Below, one piece after another: positions 6,906 through 31,750 of a stretch of 33,360 nt of DNA. Location: positions 1 to 33,360 of the IMG/VR virus record IMGVR_UViG_3300030060_004648. One strand, 5' to 3'. The translations under genes were made by a program, and so were the position numbers. The notes under the pieces were generated by a model. That model made no database searches. It was not told the origin of the DNA and saw only the letters and a program-made list of their open reading frames with translations. The number at the start of each line of letters is the position of its first letter. Positions within the stretch are counted from its first letter, which is position 1. Origin of the DNA: a virus.

Positions 6906-8117
6906 ATGATAAACCCTAAAGAGTTAATATGTCCTAATTGCTACAACATTGGAATGACCAAAGAGGGATTTTCAAGAGAAGGCAGGCAGCGATATAAGTG
7001 TAAATCTTGTCATTGCAAGACGGTCTACCCTATATGGGATGCCGACCACGATATAGTCCGAGAGAATGTAAGGCTATCCAAGCAGAAACAGAAGGCTCAG
7101 GACAAAAATCGCATATTGAATAAATCCTTTCGTGAACACGCTAGGATAGAAAACGCTGTAGAAGAGTACAGCAAAGAATTAATAAAGCTTTTTGAAAATA
7201 ACGATTTGCATAAAACCTTAAATGAGTTCAAGGTTAATAATAAAGCTGTAGGTGTACTTCAGTTGTCGGATGTTCATTTTAACGAACTTGTAGATTTGGA
7301 AAACAATAAATATGATTTCGAAGTCGCCTCCTCCAGGATCAGGTATTTTGTCAATAGAGCGAAGATGTACTTTAAGACTGCGAATATTACAAATGTTGTA
7401 TTGGCAATGACTGGCGATATGATGAATAGTGACAGAAGACTTGACGAACTTCTAAATCAGGCTACCAATAGAGCTAAGGCTACATTTCTTGGAGTGGACA
7501 TCCTTCAACAGGCTATTATAGACCTTAACCAGGATTTTAATGTTACAGTTGCATCTATTATAGGTAACGAGGGTAGAGCGAATAAAGAAATGGGTTGGAG
7601 TGACATTGTAGCGACAGATAACTATGATTATACAATATTTCAATGTTTAAGGTATTTATTTAGAGATAAAAGTGTTAAATTTATACACGGTGATCCCTCA
7701 GAATTAGTGATTAATGTCGCAGGACAAAATCTACTAATGCTTCATGGTCATGGTTCAGTTAGAGGTAAACTAGACACTGCTGTAAACCAAATCGCTGGAA
7801 GATACTCACTCAAGGGTATAAAGATTGACTATGTCATATTTGGTCATGTACACAGCGCAAGAGTCGGAGACAACTTTGGAAGAAGCTCATCTTTAGTAGG
7901 TGCTAACGACTATGCAGAGAAAGCACTTAATCTTAATGGTAGAGCTAGCCAAAACTGCTACATATTTCATAGTAACGGAAACAGAGATGGCATAAAGGTT
8001 GACCTTCAGCATACAGACGGAAAAGGGTATGACATAGATAAAGCTTTGGAGGCATACAATGCGAAATCGTCAGAAAAAAGAGTGCAGAAAAAAACGATAT
8101 TTGAAGTTGTCGTCTGA
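6906..8117 (+). CDS. Metallophosphoesterase with N-terminal zinc ribbon
   Basis: A 403-residue fusion. Residues 9-37 form a zinc ribbon (C9PNC12, then RYKCKSC with C32 and C35), like the InsA or transposase-type DNA-binding ribbon. Residues 50-105 are a helical linker. The rest is a calcineurin-like phosphoesterase with the motif series D122-V-H124, G170-D171, G220-N221-E222, H280-G-H282 and G-H314-V-H316. The third motif is GNE rather than the usual GNH. Such enzymes use two metal ions to cleave phosphoester bonds in nucleic acids, proteins or small molecules. The zinc ribbon suggests a nucleic acid substrate. It lies between the endolysin and small membrane genes with a clear AGGGGGTG site. 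Its role is unknown. Confidence 0.87.
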   Translation: MINPKELICPNCYNIGMTKEGFSREGRQRYKCKSCHCKTVYPIWDADHDIVRENVRLSKQKQKAQDKNRILNKSFREHARIENAVEEYSKELIKLFENNDLHKTLNEFKVNNKAVGVLQLSDVHFNELVDLENNKYDFEVASSRIRYFVNRAKMYFKTANITNVVLAMTGDMMNSDRRLDELLNQATNRAKATFLGVDILQQAIIDLNQDFNVTVASIIGNEGRANKEMGWSDIVATDNYDYTIFQCLRYLFRDKSVKFIHGDPSELVINVAGQNLLMLHGHGSVRGKLDTAVNQIAGRYSLKGIKIDYVIFGHVHSARVGDNFGRSSSLVGANDYAEKALNLNGRASQNCYIFHSNGNRDGIKVDLQHTDGKGYDIDKALEAYNAKSSEKRVQKKTIFEVVV

Positions 8118-23816: not shown

Positions 23817-24756
23817 AGGAACATCAATAGGAAAACCAAAAGTGTTTATAGACTATGTACAGTATTTAAGAGCTGTTGGAGCAGTTAGCGAGTTTGACGA
23901 AAACCCCAATGTTTGGGATATGAATCCATCTAAAACTGTTAATTTGAGTTTTGGCACTACAAGTCAAGTAGTATTTGACATACTTGAAGATAACAATCTG
24001 TCAGATTTTTTAAATACTGTAAATTATTTTGCTATACTGGGTCACGATAGCAATGCTGAAAACTTTACTTTAAATTTTGGTCAAGACAGCAGCAACGTTA
24101 ATTTAAATGTTTACGCCCCTAGGCTTGCTTTAGCAGATTACTCTGGATATCATATTTTTAATATAAAAAAATCAGTATCTGACAATAGTAGATATAAAGT
24201 TAAAAATACATCACCTTGCAATATTGGATGCTACTCCATAGGAAGAATATTTACTTTCCCAAATGCTCCAGACCTAAGTGTTGATTTTAAACTTACGCAC
24301 GATGGCATAAAAAGAAAAAGAACTATAGGTGGCAGTGATATTACTGACATCAATCACTATCAAACTCCAGATTGGGTAGGCAGAAGACCGTGGACAGCTT
24401 CTGATGACTACGACACAAATTATAAATATACTGGCTATAATGGCAGAAGGTCTTGGAAAGTCAAATTTTCGTATCTAGATCACACTAACACTATGCCCAT
24501 TGACACCAATGAATCTTTTTTGCTTGATGGGTACTTACCAGACAATGCAATATCTTTAAACGTAATGCCTGATAAATTAAATATAGTATCTCACTTTTTA
24601 ACACTAACTATGAATGGCAATTTAAAATTTATATTTCAACCAAATGAAGATGAAGATCAGTTTTCTTTATGTTTGCTAGATAAGAACAGCACCACTATAA
24701 AGCAAGTAGCACATAAGACCTACGAAGTTAGCTTTACTTTTGTCGAGACTTACTAG
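23803..24756 (+). CDS. Tail protein, last gene of the late block
   Basis: The start chosen is ATG 23803 because AGAGG lies five bases before it; the in-frame GTG at 23797 falls on that site. The 317-residue protein overlaps the 3' end of the previous gene by 14 bases. It is rich in Asn, Asp, Tyr and Phe with clear beta strands (NLSFGTTSQVVFDIL, FTLNFGQDSSNVNLNVYAPRL, KIFQPNEDEDQF-like end). This fits a distal tail or baseplate beta-sandwich protein, perhaps a receptor-contacting one. It is not assignable to a named family from motifs alone. The 3' end overlaps the opposing resolvase gene by 23 bases. Confidence 0.65.
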   Translation: MPLDRGTSIGKPKVFIDYVQYLRAVGAVSEFDENPNVWDMNPSKTVNLSFGTTSQVVFDILEDNNLSDFLNTVNYFAILGHDSNAENFTLNFGQDSSNVNLNVYAPRLALADYSGYHIFNIKKSVSDNSRYKVKNTSPCNIGCYSIGRIFTFPNAPDLSVDFKLTHDGIKRKRTIGGSDITDINHYQTPDWVGRRPWTASDDYDTNYKYTGYNGRRSWKVKFSYLDHTNTMPIDTNESFLLDGYLPDNAISLNVMPDKLNIVSHFLTLTMNGNLKFIFQPNEDEDQFSLCLLDKNSTTIKQVAHKTYEVSFTFVETY

Positions 24757-25111
24757 AGCCTTCATATAGCTCTAATTCTTGTTTTAAGACACGATAGCGC
24801 CTCATTTCAGCAAGATAATCATCATACCTAATAACTATGTAGGATTCGCCTCTGTCTTGCCTAATTAGCTGCGCATCTATGGCATCATCTTTTGGGAATA
24901 TATACTCTGGTAATCGCTTCCTAATCTTGCATTGTATGTGTGTTTCGTCATTATACTCTTTATCACCTATAACGATGTCAACTTCTGCGTGTAGACCCAT
25001 AGATCTTCCGTCACTACCCCAGGCTCTTTTAGATGGGATTTCATACTCTTCTGCTTTTTTACAGCAGTCTCTTTCAAACTTATTACCTTTGATTTTACTT
25101 GGATGGCTCAT
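24734..25111 (-). CDS. Holliday-junction resolvase-like PD-(D/E)XK nuclease (Hjc-like)
   Basis: A 125-residue protein matching the pattern of archaeal Hjc and phage relatives: G9-N-K-F-E13-R14, R29-A-W-G-S, then E43-V-D45 and Q60-C-K62-x-R. The E13, R29, D45 and K62 positions fit the active site. The usual Glu before xK is Gln here, so metal binding may differ, though QCK also occurs in this family as I recall. It would cut branched replication or recombination intermediates before packaging. It is the last gene of the leftward DNA-metabolism operon and starts inside the stop of the MazG-like gene (TAATG). Confidence 0.75.
   Translation of the reverse strand: MSHPSKIKGNKFERDCCKKAEEYEIPSKRAWGSDGRSMGLHAEVDIVIGDKEYNDETHIQCKIRKRLPEYIFPKDDAIDAQLIRQDRGESYIVIRYDDYLAEMRRYRVLKQELELYEGSSKSRQK
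24754..24784 (+). terminator. Possible terminator of the late operon
   Basis: TAGAGC (24754-24759) and GCTCTA (24769-24774) form a six-base stem with a nine-base loop. They begin at the stop codon of the last tail gene and are followed by the T-rich stretch ATTCTTGTTTT. The stem is short and AT-rich, so the call is tentative. Its place between the convergent late and DNA-metabolism operons supports it. Confidence 0.4.
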
Positions 25112-26409: not shown

Positions 26410-26893
26410 CATTGTCTCCTAGTTTAAAAGATTTTAACAAATCTCCAATCTCTGTAACATCGGCAGCCCTCTCGTTTCCGTAGGTCTTAGTATAACTATC
26501 CATCTGACTGTACCTTTTTCTATCTTTCCTTACATCAGCATTAGTCCTAGTCTGTGGTGTAAACGATGGTGTTGCCTTACTTATCCAATTATAACAGAAC
26601 TTCTTTAAATCTTTCTTGTGCGCTTTGTTAGATAATAGCCAAGCCTTAGCTTTGTCTAATTCGTTATTGATATCCACACCAGGGAATGCCTTACGCATAT
26701 CATCAAGCCAAGCACCCTCTTCAACTATCTGTATAAAGAAGTTATTGACTCTCTCATCATAAGGTAGAACTGCTTTAGTTGTTTCAGTTCTTCCCTGGTA
26801 TTTAGAATATCGTTCCATAAGCCACGAGAATACTTTATCTCCGTCAGCATAATACTGCTTTCCATCTTTCTCTATAGCTATTTTAATTTTCAT
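26402..26893 (-). CDS. Replication-organiser-like protein (DnaT-like C-terminal motif)
   Basis: A 163-residue protein coupled to the SSB-like gene by TAATG. Residues 65-110 read FPGVDINNELDKAKAWLLSN followed by KKDLKKFCYNWISKA. This is a helical motif often found at the C-terminus of phage replication initiation and helicase-loader proteins (FPxxDxxxELxKxxxWLxxN...FxxNWLxR). The first half is less typical and could be a regulator or DNA-binding domain. The C-terminal tail is polar and ends acidic (KLGDNDD). If right, it would help recruit the host helicase. No polymerase, helicase or primase gene is visible in this genome. Confidence 0.6.
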   Translation of the reverse strand: MKIKIAIEKDGKQYYADGDKVFSWLMERYSKYQGRTETTKAVLPYDERVNNFFIQIVEEGAWLDDMRKAFPGVDINNELDKAKAWLLSNKAHKKDLKKFCYNWISKATPSFTPQTRTNADVRKDRKRYSQMDSYTKTYGNERAADVTEIGDLLKSFKLGDNDD

Positions 26894-27264
26894 TAAAACG
26901 GAATCTCAGCGCTTTCTTTCTTTTCTGGAGTAGCGTTAGACTTAACTGCTGGTGCATTAGGATCAAACTTAACCCATCCACCATCTGATAGCCAATTCCC
27001 ATCTGCATCTTTCCTTCTTGGAAATAAACTACCATCTTTTTTAGTCTTACCGAACTTTAGTACATGGAATGTCTCTTTATCATACATCTCATAATAATGA
27101 TTACCATCTACTTCTCTATGCCTAAAGCCAATATTCTCACTATTGTTAGCTTTATTAACACAATTACCAAACACACTATCGAACGAAGCAAGTTGCTCAA
27201 ACACTTCTGTTGTGCTTCCTTCTGCTTCCACAGTGAATTTGCCAGTTTTATAAGTTACTTTCAT
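26893..27264 (-). CDS. SSB-like protein (acidic EIPF C-terminal tip)
   Basis: A 123-residue protein. Residues 1-100 form an alpha-beta domain (KVTYKTGKFTVEAEGST, RHREVDGNHYYEMYD, HVLKFGKTKKDGSLFPRRKD). A polar, unstructured linker follows (NAPAVKSNATPEKKE) and the protein ends in SAEIPF. Ending a disordered tail in (D/E)IPF is the hallmark of bacterial single-strand binding proteins, where it contacts partner enzymes. The N-terminal domain is not an obvious OB fold; I recall LKFGxxKxGxLFP proteins in phages without firm function. The place between the nuclease and replication genes supports an SSB role. Confidence 0.55.
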   Translation of the reverse strand: MKVTYKTGKFTVEAEGSTTEVFEQLASFDSVFGNCVNKANNSENIGFRHREVDGNHYYEMYDKETFHVLKFGKTKKDGSLFPRRKDADGNWLSDGGWVKFDPNAPAVKSNATPEKKESAEIPF

Positions 27265-27803
27265 TATTTATTCTCCTTTTGTTCATTTAAATAAACTTTA
27301 GGCTCATCAACCTCAATAATTATTCCATGTGTTTCTAAGAATTTTTCTGCTTTTTTAATTTCATCTAATGCATCAAAAATAGATTTTAATTCATCATCTA
27401 TTCTTGTTAAAACAGTGTCAAACCAATACTCAGACCTATTGTCTAAATGTGACCTTAATCTCCTTACCTCATTAGCTAAATTATTATAATCCTTTGCACT
27501 TATAACTTTTTTAAGTCTGCCTAAATGTTTTGGTTTTCCTGTAGGGGTTAATTTGTGGCTATTTTCACTTTTTTCAAAATCTTGTGGTCTTATGATGTAT
27601 GTTGGTAGCCCTGCCTTTTTTAAAGCATCTATCATTTTAACTTGTTCAGGTCGTAGCTTGTCATTTCTATTTTTAACTTCAACACAACCTAATCCGTTAT
27701 ACCTACCAAGCCTTCTAATCATAAAGTCTGGATATCCATTTCTTAAAACTTCATATCCTAATGTTTCTAAATATAATTTAACCTTTTTTTCAAATGCGTT
27801 CAT
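27264..27803 (-). CDS. VRR-NUC domain nuclease
   Basis: A 179-residue protein. The N-terminal 75 residues are a compact VRR-NUC or PD-(D/E)XK core: helix EKKVKLYLETLGYEVL, then YPD26FMI, CVE42VK44NRNDKLRPEQ54 and LPTYII. D26, E42, K44 and Q54 match the family's active site. Residues 80-179 are a charged coiled-coil tail (ANEVRRLRSHLDN, RIDDELKSIFDALDEIKK) not usual in stand-alone phage VRR-NUC proteins and possibly used for dimerisation. It would cut branched DNA. Both neighbours overlap by a few bases. Confidence 0.85.
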   Translation of the reverse strand: MNAFEKKVKLYLETLGYEVLRNGYPDFMIRRLGRYNGLGCVEVKNRNDKLRPEQVKMIDALKKAGLPTYIIRPQDFEKSENSHKLTPTGKPKHLGRLKKVISAKDYNNLANEVRRLRSHLDNRSEYWFDTVLTRIDDELKSIFDALDEIKKAEKFLETHGIIIEVDEPKVYLNEQKENK

Positions 27804-28282
27804 TTCTCCCCCTTTAAATTAAACTTACTTGGAAACTGCCTTGCAAAATTAGGCGTTGGATTATTACCTTTTGCGTCTTGGTTCTTCCATTGCCATATAT
27901 CATACACATTCTTTACCAAATTATAGTCAATATTATAATACTTTAGCGTGTATGTAGGTTTCTTAATCCAGGAATCTTTTAAATGTAGTGTGGCTATCTT
28001 TTCAATCTTATACTTCGGAAATAGCTTATTCCAGATCATCGCATAAGCAGATAACTGAACTTGATGTGTTTTATAAGGCAGTCCAGTTTTATAATCAACT
28101 AAATTAATCTCTAGCTTGTTGGTCTTCTTATCACCAATATAACCTACAAAGTCAGCAGTACCACAAAAAGGTATATCCTTATGATGTAACATAATCTCGC
28201 TAGCAATAGGTATTGGCTCATAATCATCCCAAAACTGCTTAAAACCCATTAATCTCTTACTTATAGCTTTCTTAGTTATCAT
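27800..28282 (-). CDS. C-terminal half of a split RecB/Cas4-type nuclease
   Basis: A 160-residue protein with the catalytic part of the RecB nuclease family: E29 in IASEI, G41-T-A-D44 in CGTADFVGYI, D63-Y-K65-T-G, then Q76-x-x-x-Y80. The first motif of this fold (GTxxH in a helix) is missing here. It is found in the gene 28511-28876, separated from this one by another small gene. ATG 28282 overlaps the previous stop (ATGA). Joined, the two parts would have about 280 residues, a normal length for phage RecB-like exonucleases, which resect DNA for recombination. Confidence 0.75.
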   Translation of the reverse strand: MITKKAISKRLMGFKQFWDDYEPIPIASEIMLHHKDIPFCGTADFVGYIGDKKTNKLEINLVDYKTGLPYKTHQVQLSAYAMIWNKLFPKYKIEKIATLHLKDSWIKKPTYTLKYYNIDYNLVKNVYDIWQWKNQDAKGNNPTPNFARQFPSKFNLKGEK

Positions 28283-28530
28283 CCTGGCAATATCCTTATA
28301 TTAGTTTGGTATTCGATGGTATATAATCTTACAAAAAAATCCACCTTGGTATTGTCATTTATACCTAAAGTAAATGGATTACCGTCATAATCAACTACAT
28401 CTCTTACTGGTGAAACCTTGCACTTCTGAGTTTTTTCACTCCATTTATAAGGCATACCTTTCATTTTCTTCCTATAAGCCATAAAATTCCTGTAGTTCTG
28501 GAATTGCACTTTATGATTCGTCGTTATCAT
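28279..28530 (-). CDS. Hypothetical protein between the nuclease halves
   Basis: The start chosen is ATG 28530 because GGAGG lies five bases before it; an earlier ATG at 28560 lacks a site. The 82-residue protein overlaps the N-half gene by 20 bases and the C-half gene by four. It is basic and aromatic at the start (FQNYRNFMAYRKKMKGMPYKW) and has a beta-like second half (RDVVDYDGNPFTLG, VDFFVRLYTIEYQTNIRIL). No family is recognised. Its position inside an otherwise contiguous nuclease suggests either an insertion or a functional partner. Confidence 0.65.
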   Translation of the reverse strand: MITTNHKVQFQNYRNFMAYRKKMKGMPYKWSEKTQKCKVSPVRDVVDYDGNPFTLGINDNTKVDFFVRLYTIEYQTNIRILPG

Positions 28531-28876
28531 TACTACCTCCGAAATTATAATGAACGCCATCTAGTGTATATCCACGCCTAAGATCAACATCCTCGCCCTC
28601 CACCATCATATCTATATAAGCGTGTACAATCGTACCCATAGTGGCTTTTTCATCTCTTATTTTAATAGCATTGTGTCCGTGTGTCATTAACCAGTTATGA
28701 AAACTAACACCCTTATCTACGATATCAAAACTAGTAACAGATATATAATGCTTGCCTTTTGAGTCTTCATACCACCTACCATTTGATAAATCGTGCCTTT
28801 TTAACGGATTATTATCAATGTAGTTTTTTACTATATTCTTAATGTTCTCTTTTTTCGGCTTCTTCTTTTGAGTCAT
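28511..28876 (-). CDS. N-terminal half of a split RecB/Cas4-type nuclease
   Basis: A 121-residue protein with GGAGATTTTT before its ATG. It overlaps the regulator gene by 38 bases. Residues 43-60 (HYISVTSFDIVDKGVSFHNWL) and 77-92 (KATMGTIVH85AYIDMMVEG) match the beginning of phage RecB-like nucleases, where the His of GTxxH is part of the active site. The protein then ends in a polar tail rich in Asp and Asn. The remaining catalytic motifs occur in gene 27800-28282. On its own it cannot be an active nuclease of this family. Confidence 0.72.
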   Translation of the reverse strand: MTQKKKPKKENIKNIVKNYIDNNPLKRHDLSNGRWYEDSKGKHYISVTSFDIVDKGVSFHNWLMTHGHNAIKIRDEKATMGTIVHAYIDMMVEGEDVDLRRGYTLDGVHYNFGGSNDNDES

Positions 28877-29066
28877 AAAAATCTCCTAGTTTGCATCTAC
28901 ATAGTTTAGCTATTTCTTTTAAGGTTTCTTTCTTAGGCTTTCTGTCACCAGAGCAGTAATAATATAGTGTTACTCTGTGAAGATTTAGCTTATCAGCGAT
29001 AAACGAAGCCTTCATTCCAGATTGCTTTATTGCTTTTTTGAGTTTGCTTCTATTAAAGTATATCAT
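28839..29066 (-). CDS. Cro/CI-type (XRE) transcriptional regulator
   Basis: A 75-residue protein with a complete helix-turn-helix of the XRE family (residues about 7-60: LKKAIKQSGMKASFIADKLN, HRVTLYYYCSGDRKPKKETLKEIAKLC). The C-terminus is short, so it lacks the oligomerisation or protease domain of a CI repressor and resembles Cro. It is the first gene of the leftward operon; its promoter and the divergent rightward promoter are close upstream. It probably controls one or both of them through the dyads at 29081-29093 or 29197-29233. Confidence 0.85.
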   Translation of the reverse strand: MIYFNRSKLKKAIKQSGMKASFIADKLNLHRVTLYYYCSGDRKPKKETLKEIAKLCRCKLGDFYDSKEEAEKREH

Positions 29067-29080
29067 AGCGACAATTTAGT

Positions 29081-29093
29081 AAGTTATAAACTT
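29081..29093. promoter_or_regulatory. Small dyad upstream of the regulator gene
   Basis: AAGTT-ATA-AACTT is a perfect five-base inverted repeat ending 15 bases before the regulator start, downstream of the likely leftward transcription start. It could be an operator of the XRE protein. The size is small and chance occurrence in such AT-rich DNA is possible. Confidence 0.35.
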
Positions 29094-29139
29094 CCTTGCA
29101 ACAAAAAAATAAACTAATGTAGGAATTAAGACGAGAAAT

Positions 29140-29190
29140 ATAATATAATCCAGGAATGCACTTGCAAAATATAATGATATTGTTTATAAT
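29140..29190. promoter_or_regulatory. Divergent promoter pair sharing a palindromic -35 (TTGCAA)
   Basis: TTGCAA at 29162-29167 is its own reverse complement. Rightward, a perfect TATAAT (29185-29190) follows after 17 bases. Leftward, TATTAT (29145-29140 on the minus strand) follows after 16 bases. Both could be sigma-70-type promoters, one for the regulator operon and one reading to the right. One polymerase at the shared -35 would exclude the other, a simple switch. Confidence 0.6.
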
Positions 29191-29196
29191 ATAATC

Positions 29197-29233
29197 CCCT
29201 ATGGTTTGGGAACTATTTACTTTTTGCATAGGG
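29197..29233. promoter_or_regulatory. Inverted repeat just downstream of the rightward promoter
   Basis: CCCTATG (29197-29203) and CATAGGG (29227-29233) are seven-base inverted repeats with 23 bases between. The rightward transcript from TATAAT 29185-29190 would begin at about its left arm. It may be an operator or form a hairpin at the 5' end of that RNA. Confidence 0.5.
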
Positions 29234-29244
29234 ATTAATATAAA

Positions 29245-29430
29245 GTGGTTACAAAAAGGGATCTCGGTGCAGCCACAAGTCAAGACGAACACTAGACTGA
29301 CTCCGATAGAGTTACCAGACTCGAAACTGGAACTAGTGCATTAATTATACTGGAATTTATAATTATAGGCATATCCGACAGCGACAAGTCAAAGGGTAAT
29401 AAAAGCCTAGAATCCTCCTCTGATTTATAA
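29245..29430 (+). pseudogene. Possible small membrane protein gene with an internal TAG
   Basis: Downstream of the rightward promoter a frame from GTG 29245 reads 16 codons (VVTKRDLGAATSQDEH), meets TAG at 29293-29295 and continues without further stops for 44 codons to TAA 29428-29430. The second part (DRVTRLETGTSALIILEFIIIGISDSDKSK) looks like a short helix, a membrane segment and a polar tail. TAG is a normal stop elsewhere in this genome, so this is either a decayed gene, a read-through case or chance. Its end overlaps the leftward terminator. The opposite frames 29053-29292 and 29292-29582 look non-coding. Confidence 0.3.
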
Positions 29431-30943: not shown

Positions 30944-31750
30944 TTAATTATTTATAACAAATCCTGTCTTGTCTTTTTTAGCGTCACCCTTTGCAAGTAA
31001 TCCGATTATTACGTTTTTAGGATCTAAAAATCGTAAGTCTGTATCATCACCATTAAAGACTTTAAAACCTTTGTATGTAGATGGTATTTTATTCTTAAAT
31101 ACAAAAGCCGAATTATAGCCATTTATTAGATAGTTAAGGGCTTTTTTCTCATTATCCTCACATCTACTGAAGGTTAAATGGTAATTACTTAGTTTTAAAG
31201 CGTTTTTACGCCACTCAATACAATGCTTGGTGTAATCATAAAATGTACAAGTATTAAATAATTGCATGATATTAAATGTATCACTAGTCAACATATCTAA
31301 TGTAATTTTATTAGTATTATTAAAAATATTTAAATAGTTAGCATTATTAACAATATACTTCCTGGTCATCAAGTCACTTGTTTTTATTTTGATATTTTCC
31401 CACATAATGTCTGAGGTTCCATTTAATCTGATAACTGGAATTAAATTTTTATTCTTGGCTTTTATTTGAAGTCTGATTATAGACTCTATTAAATCTAGCA
31501 TAAAATTAATCCTATCATTAATAAAGTATTTACTTTTTTTGATCCGTGCCTTTTGTACGCTATTAAAAGCGCCACGCCCAGCCGAATATAAGCAAGCTAA
31601 TTTGCAGCCCTCTGATGCTGATGCACATAAATTAACGCCAGATGTCTCATGGGGGGCAAGATATAAAATGCCAGTTAAATAGCCTTTTTTAGTCCCTTTG
31701 CTCGTTTTATAGTCGCTATTGATACTTAGTAATTGATTATATTTTTTCAT
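30944..31750 (-). CDS. GP88-like conserved phage protein
   Basis: A 268-residue protein of the family known as gene product 88 in mycobacteriophages and widespread in phages and plasmids; its biochemical function is not established to my knowledge. Landmarks are KTSKGTKKGYLTGILYLAP, the cysteine motif C42-x6-C49-x3-C53 followed by LYSAGRG, the motif RLNGTSDIMWE (about residue 107), FYDYTKHC, the LTFSRCEDN stretch and the closing FLDPKNVIIGLLAKGDAKKDKTGFV. The conserved cysteines resemble ligands of an iron-sulphur cluster, but this is inference. It is the largest protein of its operon and is preceded by AAGTAAAGG. Confidence 0.85.
   Translation of the reverse strand: MKKYNQLLSINSDYKTSKGTKKGYLTGILYLAPHETSGVNLCASASEGCKLACLYSAGRGAFNSVQKARIKKSKYFINDRINFMLDLIESIIRLQIKAKNKNLIPVIRLNGTSDIMWENIKIKTSDLMTRKYIVNNANYLNIFNNTNKITLDMLTSDTFNIMQLFNTCTFYDYTKHCIEWRKNALKLSNYHLTFSRCEDNEKKALNYLINGYNSAFVFKNKIPSTYKGFKVFNGDDTDLRFLDPKNVIIGLLAKGDAKKDKTGFVINN

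Follow-up and report, generated by a model that had tools for sequence, protein, structure and literature searches.

Two neighbouring genes of a phage carry between them the motifs of one nuclease family, with an unrelated gene lying in the middle. Do they encode a single working enzyme in two pieces, or a nuclease that is being lost? The locus lies in a 33,360-base record of an uncultivated virus (IMG/VR), which was analysed over its whole length and is called the window here; all numbering refers to window positions. The phage is a tailed one, judging from its genes for a terminase large subunit and a major head protein. An initial annotation had described the locus as a RecB/Cas4-type nuclease divided over two genes, and had favoured a split enzyme over loss. 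We refer to the gene for the N-terminal half as N, to that for the catalytic half as C, and to the gene between them as the middle gene (Table 1).

Table 1. Coordinates of the split exonuclease locus and of other features of the window
Feature	Position	Strand	Description
Metallophosphoesterase gene	6906-8117	+	DNA-repair-exonuclease type
Likely PD-(D/E)XK protein	24734-25111	-	same gene block as the split exonuclease
123-aa gene	26893-27264	-	SSB-like EIPF tail; downstream of C; conserved marker of the exonuclease neighbourhood
VRR-NUC nuclease gene	27264-27803	-	directly after C
C gene	27800-28282	-	160 aa; catalytic half, motifs I-IV
C-gene motif residues			E29 (motif I); D44 (motif II, GTAD); D63 and K65 (motif III, DYKTG); Q76 and Y80 (motif IV, QLSAY)
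Middle gene	28279-28530	-	about 82 residues; no family assigned; start overlaps N, end overlaps C
N gene	28511-28876	-	121 aa; N-terminal half of RecB/MGME1-type exonuclease; motif Ia GTIVH at residues 81-85
His85 codon of N	28622-28624	-	within motif Ia GTIVH
Cro/CI-type HTH gene	28839-29066	-	upstream, overlaps the start of N; Pfam HTH_3, E = 4e-10
Conserved intergenic DNA	29060-29420	-	upstream of the HTH gene
GP88 family gene	30944-31750	-	Pfam PF17338, E = 2e-39

N and C correspond to neighbouring stretches of a single exonuclease family

The motifs on which the initial annotation was built are present, GTxxH in N and the D, DxK and Q motifs in C, both in intact frames. Searches against PHROGs profiles placed both proteins in phrog_298, N over columns 26-126 of 293 (E = 7e-10) and C over columns 140-268 (E = 2e-16). 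Since the two sets of columns are consecutive and do not overlap, the halves are adjacent in one family, as had been proposed. Their summed length of 281 aa, correctly described as normal, compares with about 260-300 aa in most single-gene relatives. In Pfam, N had no recognised family and C had only a weak match to PDDEXK_1, under the cut-off. The annotation had named an N half belonging to another family as the observation that would speak against a split; neither Pfam nor PHROGs held a better-fitting different family for either half. The RecB part of the name "RecB/Cas4-type" was upheld, while the Cas4 part was not. The nearest PDB entry by profile was human MGME1 (E = 1e-5), whereas C scored 21.2 bits against the Cas4 family model TIGR00372, whose cut-off is 65. 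By sequence and predicted fold, the putative enzyme resembles RecB exonucleases of the MGME1 type more closely than it does Cas4 proper. No second copy of a phrog_298-type exonuclease was present in the window or in related records.

A single clade of phages shares the split

Split relatives were taken from the IMG/VR contigs with the closest relatives, and gene order was scored wherever a contig covers the locus; the contigs are metagenomic, and most appear to derive from related samples. Complete sets of HTH, N, middle and C genes, in the same order, occur in nine contigs (the window, L003-L009 and L012), and five partial contigs (L001, L010, L011, L014, L015) agree with this order. The HTH gene is the conserved first gene of the block, its position being unchanged in the relatives. 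The N and C proteins of the nine contigs are about 70-86% identical to those of the window. The split arrangement is not due to chance, because nine contigs that have diverged to about 70% keep the order HTH-N-middle-C.

Distant relatives have both parts in one ORF, N first, at every locus checked (75/75, representing 46 distinct sequences). The alignment with full-length relatives that had been suggested as a check thus gives a single ORF matching both genes, N first and C second. Between fixed points on either side, the linker of the unsplit relatives has a median length of 20 residues. In the nearest single-gene homologue (L094, a contig of a Thermoplasmatota MAG), the match to N stops at residue 110 and the match to C begins at 113. 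The other proposed comparison concerned relatives lacking the middle gene: those found were all unsplit, and no split relative without the middle gene was found. A tree of 29 sequences, with some long deep branches and long branches for L094, L023 and L024, unites the nine complete split forms (support 99/97). Thus, the split most likely happened once and was then inherited. Judged from these sequences, a single split is the simplest account, and it has most likely been retained as the identity of N and C fell to about 70%.

The three genes overlap and keep intact frames

N, middle and C are three overlapping genes on the minus strand of the window, spanning positions 28876-27800, and all of their frames are intact. 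The same holds for every complete copy of the three genes in the nine contigs. The most likely start of the middle gene of the window is the ATG at 28530, inside N and with GGAGG ahead of it, which refines the 82 residues given earlier to 82-83. The ribosome site of C in the window is TAAGGATA, inside the end of the middle gene. A ribosome site AAGGAT precedes C in 9/9 contigs, within the codons for the invariant RILP end of the middle protein; the middle gene starts inside N in the nine contigs, behind GGAGG or a weaker site. That all three genes have been kept intact suggests that N and C function by coming back together.

The middle protein evolves faster than the halves it separates

The protein encoded between the halves had no match in Pfam, PHROGs or NCBIfam and no PDB profile match. 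The predicted structure is a compact beta-alpha-beta-beta fold (pLDDT 87.6). Foldseek returned a best PDB match with E = 0.06 (uS10-like, TM 0.43) and VIA-align a best Z of 4.6, neither convincing, and comparison with viral models (BFVD) gave nothing better. Across Pfam, PHROGs, NCBIfam, PDB and BFVD, the protein had no family or convincing fold match to an HNH, GIY-YIG or LAGLIDADG-type nuclease. With its 82 residues, the gene may be a degenerate remnant of a homing endonuclease. No copy was found elsewhere in the split contigs, in five single-gene records or in viral contigs. A weak match in L094 (E = 0.009) was dropped, as it was gone in the record-wide search.

Alternatively, the working enzyme might be a heterotrimer of N, middle and C, in which the middle protein serves as an indispensable subunit for clamping or regulating the halves. 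In its favour, the middle gene is present in every contig covering the locus and was found nowhere else, always between the halves and within an overlapping operon, and its product is predicted to fold compactly. However, the homologues, all situated between N and C, are 28-73% identical to the protein of the window, and where N and C keep about 70% identity the middle protein keeps 28-41%. It thus evolves much faster than its neighbours, unlike a protein with a conserved interface. Moreover, single-chain relatives function with no such protein, the corresponding position being taken up by just a short linker. We consider a heterotrimer unlikely. The same low standing is given to its more elaborate form, a three-protein exonuclease in which a middle protein born or captured at the break became an obligate clamp or switch that times formation of the shared metal site. 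Because the middle protein changes faster than N and C, a role as an autonomous accessory protein fits better than that of an obligate bridge, and such independence is most likely.

The putative active site is divided between N and C

The metal site of MGME1 involves His180 (motif Ia), Asp238 and Asp251, with an assisting role for Glu223 (motif I); activity is lower when any of these residues is mutated, and motif IV has the form QhXXY (PMC6237815). The phrog_298-family profile aligns with MGME1 over motifs Ia, I, II, III and IV. Across the split clade, His85 in N and E29, D44, D63, K65, Q76 and Y80 in C are invariant. The motif Ia His lies in N and motifs I-IV lie in C; therefore the break sits between Ia and I, and two polypeptides would each supply ligands to the metal. 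We infer, with the help of the models described below, an exonuclease active site that is completed in trans.

As C holds all of motifs I-IV, C might be the nuclease by itself, with the N protein now on a separate task. The MGME1 motif Ia mutant H180Q, which loses activity more mildly than the Asp mutants (PMC6237815), points the same way. Yet the family motifs GTxxH and SVT of N are invariant in the split clade, which makes sense only beside the active site encoded by C, and N and C occur together in every contig covering both. We regard an enzyme made of C alone as improbable.

Selection on the three genes was estimated from pairwise dN/dS ratios, which are rough because many dS values are near saturation: they ranged from 0.06 to 0.13 for N, from 0.02 to 0.16 for C (except for the close pair L003/L007, at 0.41), and from 0.07 to 0.18 for the middle gene in pairs of at least 52% identity, with 0.32-0.65 in two more distant pairs. 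The locus thus has the make-up of a gene in pieces: neighbouring genes that are homologous to either end of a single-gene enzyme, a further gene between them, and parts that are intact and under selection. These values bear on the loss of the nuclease, in which the split would have inactivated the enzyme and the halves would be decaying. An enzyme of one chain would indeed be inactivated by a break at this point, between motifs Ia and I, if its halves did not come together again. Against decay stand nine contigs that, despite divergence to about 70% identity, have no broken frames, conserve the catalytic residues of N and of C without change, and show dN/dS ratios that are mostly low. As far as sequences can tell, this conservation largely refutes loss, which we hold to be very improbable; the preference for a split in the initial annotation is borne out, with reassembly itself put forward as a probable consequence.

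N and C form complementary parts of one predicted fold

Since N and C share a frame in the window, the whole stretch could be read through as one chain. For this read-through model the stops were replaced with Gln, and the alignment included both split and single-chain relatives. Most of N and C was predicted with pLDDT of about 80-96 (pTM 0.70), while residues 114-195 between them were disordered (pLDDT <50). The model has a RecB-type nuclease fold, as a predicted structure. It matched MGME1 with Z 16.9 and an rmsd of 2.4 A over 176 residues, with model residues 39-335 spanning both halves; Dna2, AdnA, Cas4, AddB, RecE and lambda exonuclease followed at lower rank. It shows N and C as complementary parts of one predicted fold; with single-chain relatives in its alignment, it does not prove that the separate chains meet.

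Removal or bypass of the interruption (by an intron, an intein, a programmed frameshift or readthrough), which would restore a single-chain enzyme, can draw on the common frame of N and C in 4/9 contigs, but it is hardly credible, given that the two are not in the same frame in 5/9, that many stops lie across the insert in the frame of N, and that the downstream genes each have their own start, most with a ribosome site. An intein is excluded because the middle ORF and N are in different frames; the frame of N has many stops across the middle ORF. No Rfam family reached its gathering score in the window, which leaves a self-splicing intron without a candidate. Fusion by frameshift or readthrough is disfavoured by the offset between the N and C frames, which differs between contigs and is not conserved.

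Neighbouring genes

The slot directly after C, occupied in the window by the VRR-NUC gene, is variable among the relatives and holds unrelated genes: 240 aa in L002, 77 aa in L003, 168 + 56 aa in L004, 190 aa in L009 and 313 aa in L010. The split exonuclease thus has an insertion hot spot next to it. Because its content differs between relatives, turnover of small genes is common beside C. The gene with the EIPF tail is found downstream of C in the split relatives as well, and the unsplit exonucleases of L094 and L023 have downstream genes with similar SSB-like acidic PF tails; its product may serve as an SSB.

Several further features of the window were recorded. The likely PD-(D/E)XK protein of the same gene block has weak matches to PDDEXK_15 and Hjc, and PHROGs labels its family as RusA-like resolvase. 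Upstream of the HTH gene, the intergenic DNA is strongly conserved (mean column identity 73% in ten contigs), and an ORF seen there in relatives is broken in the window; the region has the look of non-coding DNA that is conserved as a control region or origin. The gene of the metallophosphoesterase (phrog_284, E = 4e-62) sits among structural genes, just downstream of the one for the major head protein. A GP88 family protein is also encoded in the window.

Discussion

We propose that a single event split an ancestral single-chain RecB/MGME1-type phage exonuclease of phrog_298, breaking the linker that joins the N-terminal helical part, which carries the motif Ia His, to the catalytic core with motifs I-IV. 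The split would have been connected with the arrival of the unrelated gene of about 82 residues. Each half would then have acquired a start or stop codon and a ribosome site of its own, giving an overlapping N-middle-C operon that is translated. N and C would associate in trans into one exonuclease fold with a metal site shared by two chains, while the middle protein would most likely be an autonomous accessory. This account, a passenger gene splitting an exonuclease whose halves reassemble around an independent accessory protein, is in our judgement probable. From the sequences, physical association of N and C, nuclease activity and a role in recombination or processing of phage DNA are likely.

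Single-gene members of the family are known. The phrog_298 exonucleases of Flavobacterium phage immuto, Croceibacter phage P2559S and Elizabethkingia phage TCUEAP2, together with the L094 homologue, have the same motif order and both halves recognisable, but in one gene, whereas here there are two genes with a third between. Human MGME1 is alike in motifs Ia and I-IV and in predicted fold; it differs in being a single mitochondrial chain of about 12% identity, the phage protein being known here from sequence and model. Cas4 shares the motif layout (GxxxH, D, D/ExK, QxxxY), with fold matches of Z about 7-11, but apart from the score under its family cut-off, no CRISPR genes were seen in the neighbourhood here.

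Split enzymes of phages are likewise known. NrdA of phage Aeh1 is split by mobE and functional, and in Aeromonas phage 25 the split parts of gp43 co-purify and act as a polymerase (PMC2988022); further cases concern NrdA/D/E (PMC3653736). As here, one ancestral enzyme in Aeh1 and phage 25 has become two adjacent genes with an intervening gene. In those two cases the gene between the parts encodes a homing endonuclease and the parts are proven to reassemble, whereas here that gene belongs to no known family and reassembly is probable; furthermore, the enzyme here is a RecB/MGME1-type exonuclease, the break separates its metal ligands, and a diverged clade has retained the split. No earlier report of a split exonuclease of the RecB/MGME1 type was found in the literature searched, the coverage of which was incomplete. 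Split phage enzymes are thus already known as a kind, and what is different here is a split RecB/MGME1-type exonuclease with an insert that is not a recognisable homing endonuclease.

Annotation misses this split exonuclease, with the N half lacking Pfam recognition and the C half under the Pfam cut-off. If the halves reassemble, the locus would encode a natural split nuclease, its metal site completed by two polypeptides and stable across a diverged phage clade, in which the splitting gene is no recognisable homing endonuclease. It would then offer a split-enzyme pair already made by nature, and exemplify how a broken gene turns into a stable two-subunit enzyme.
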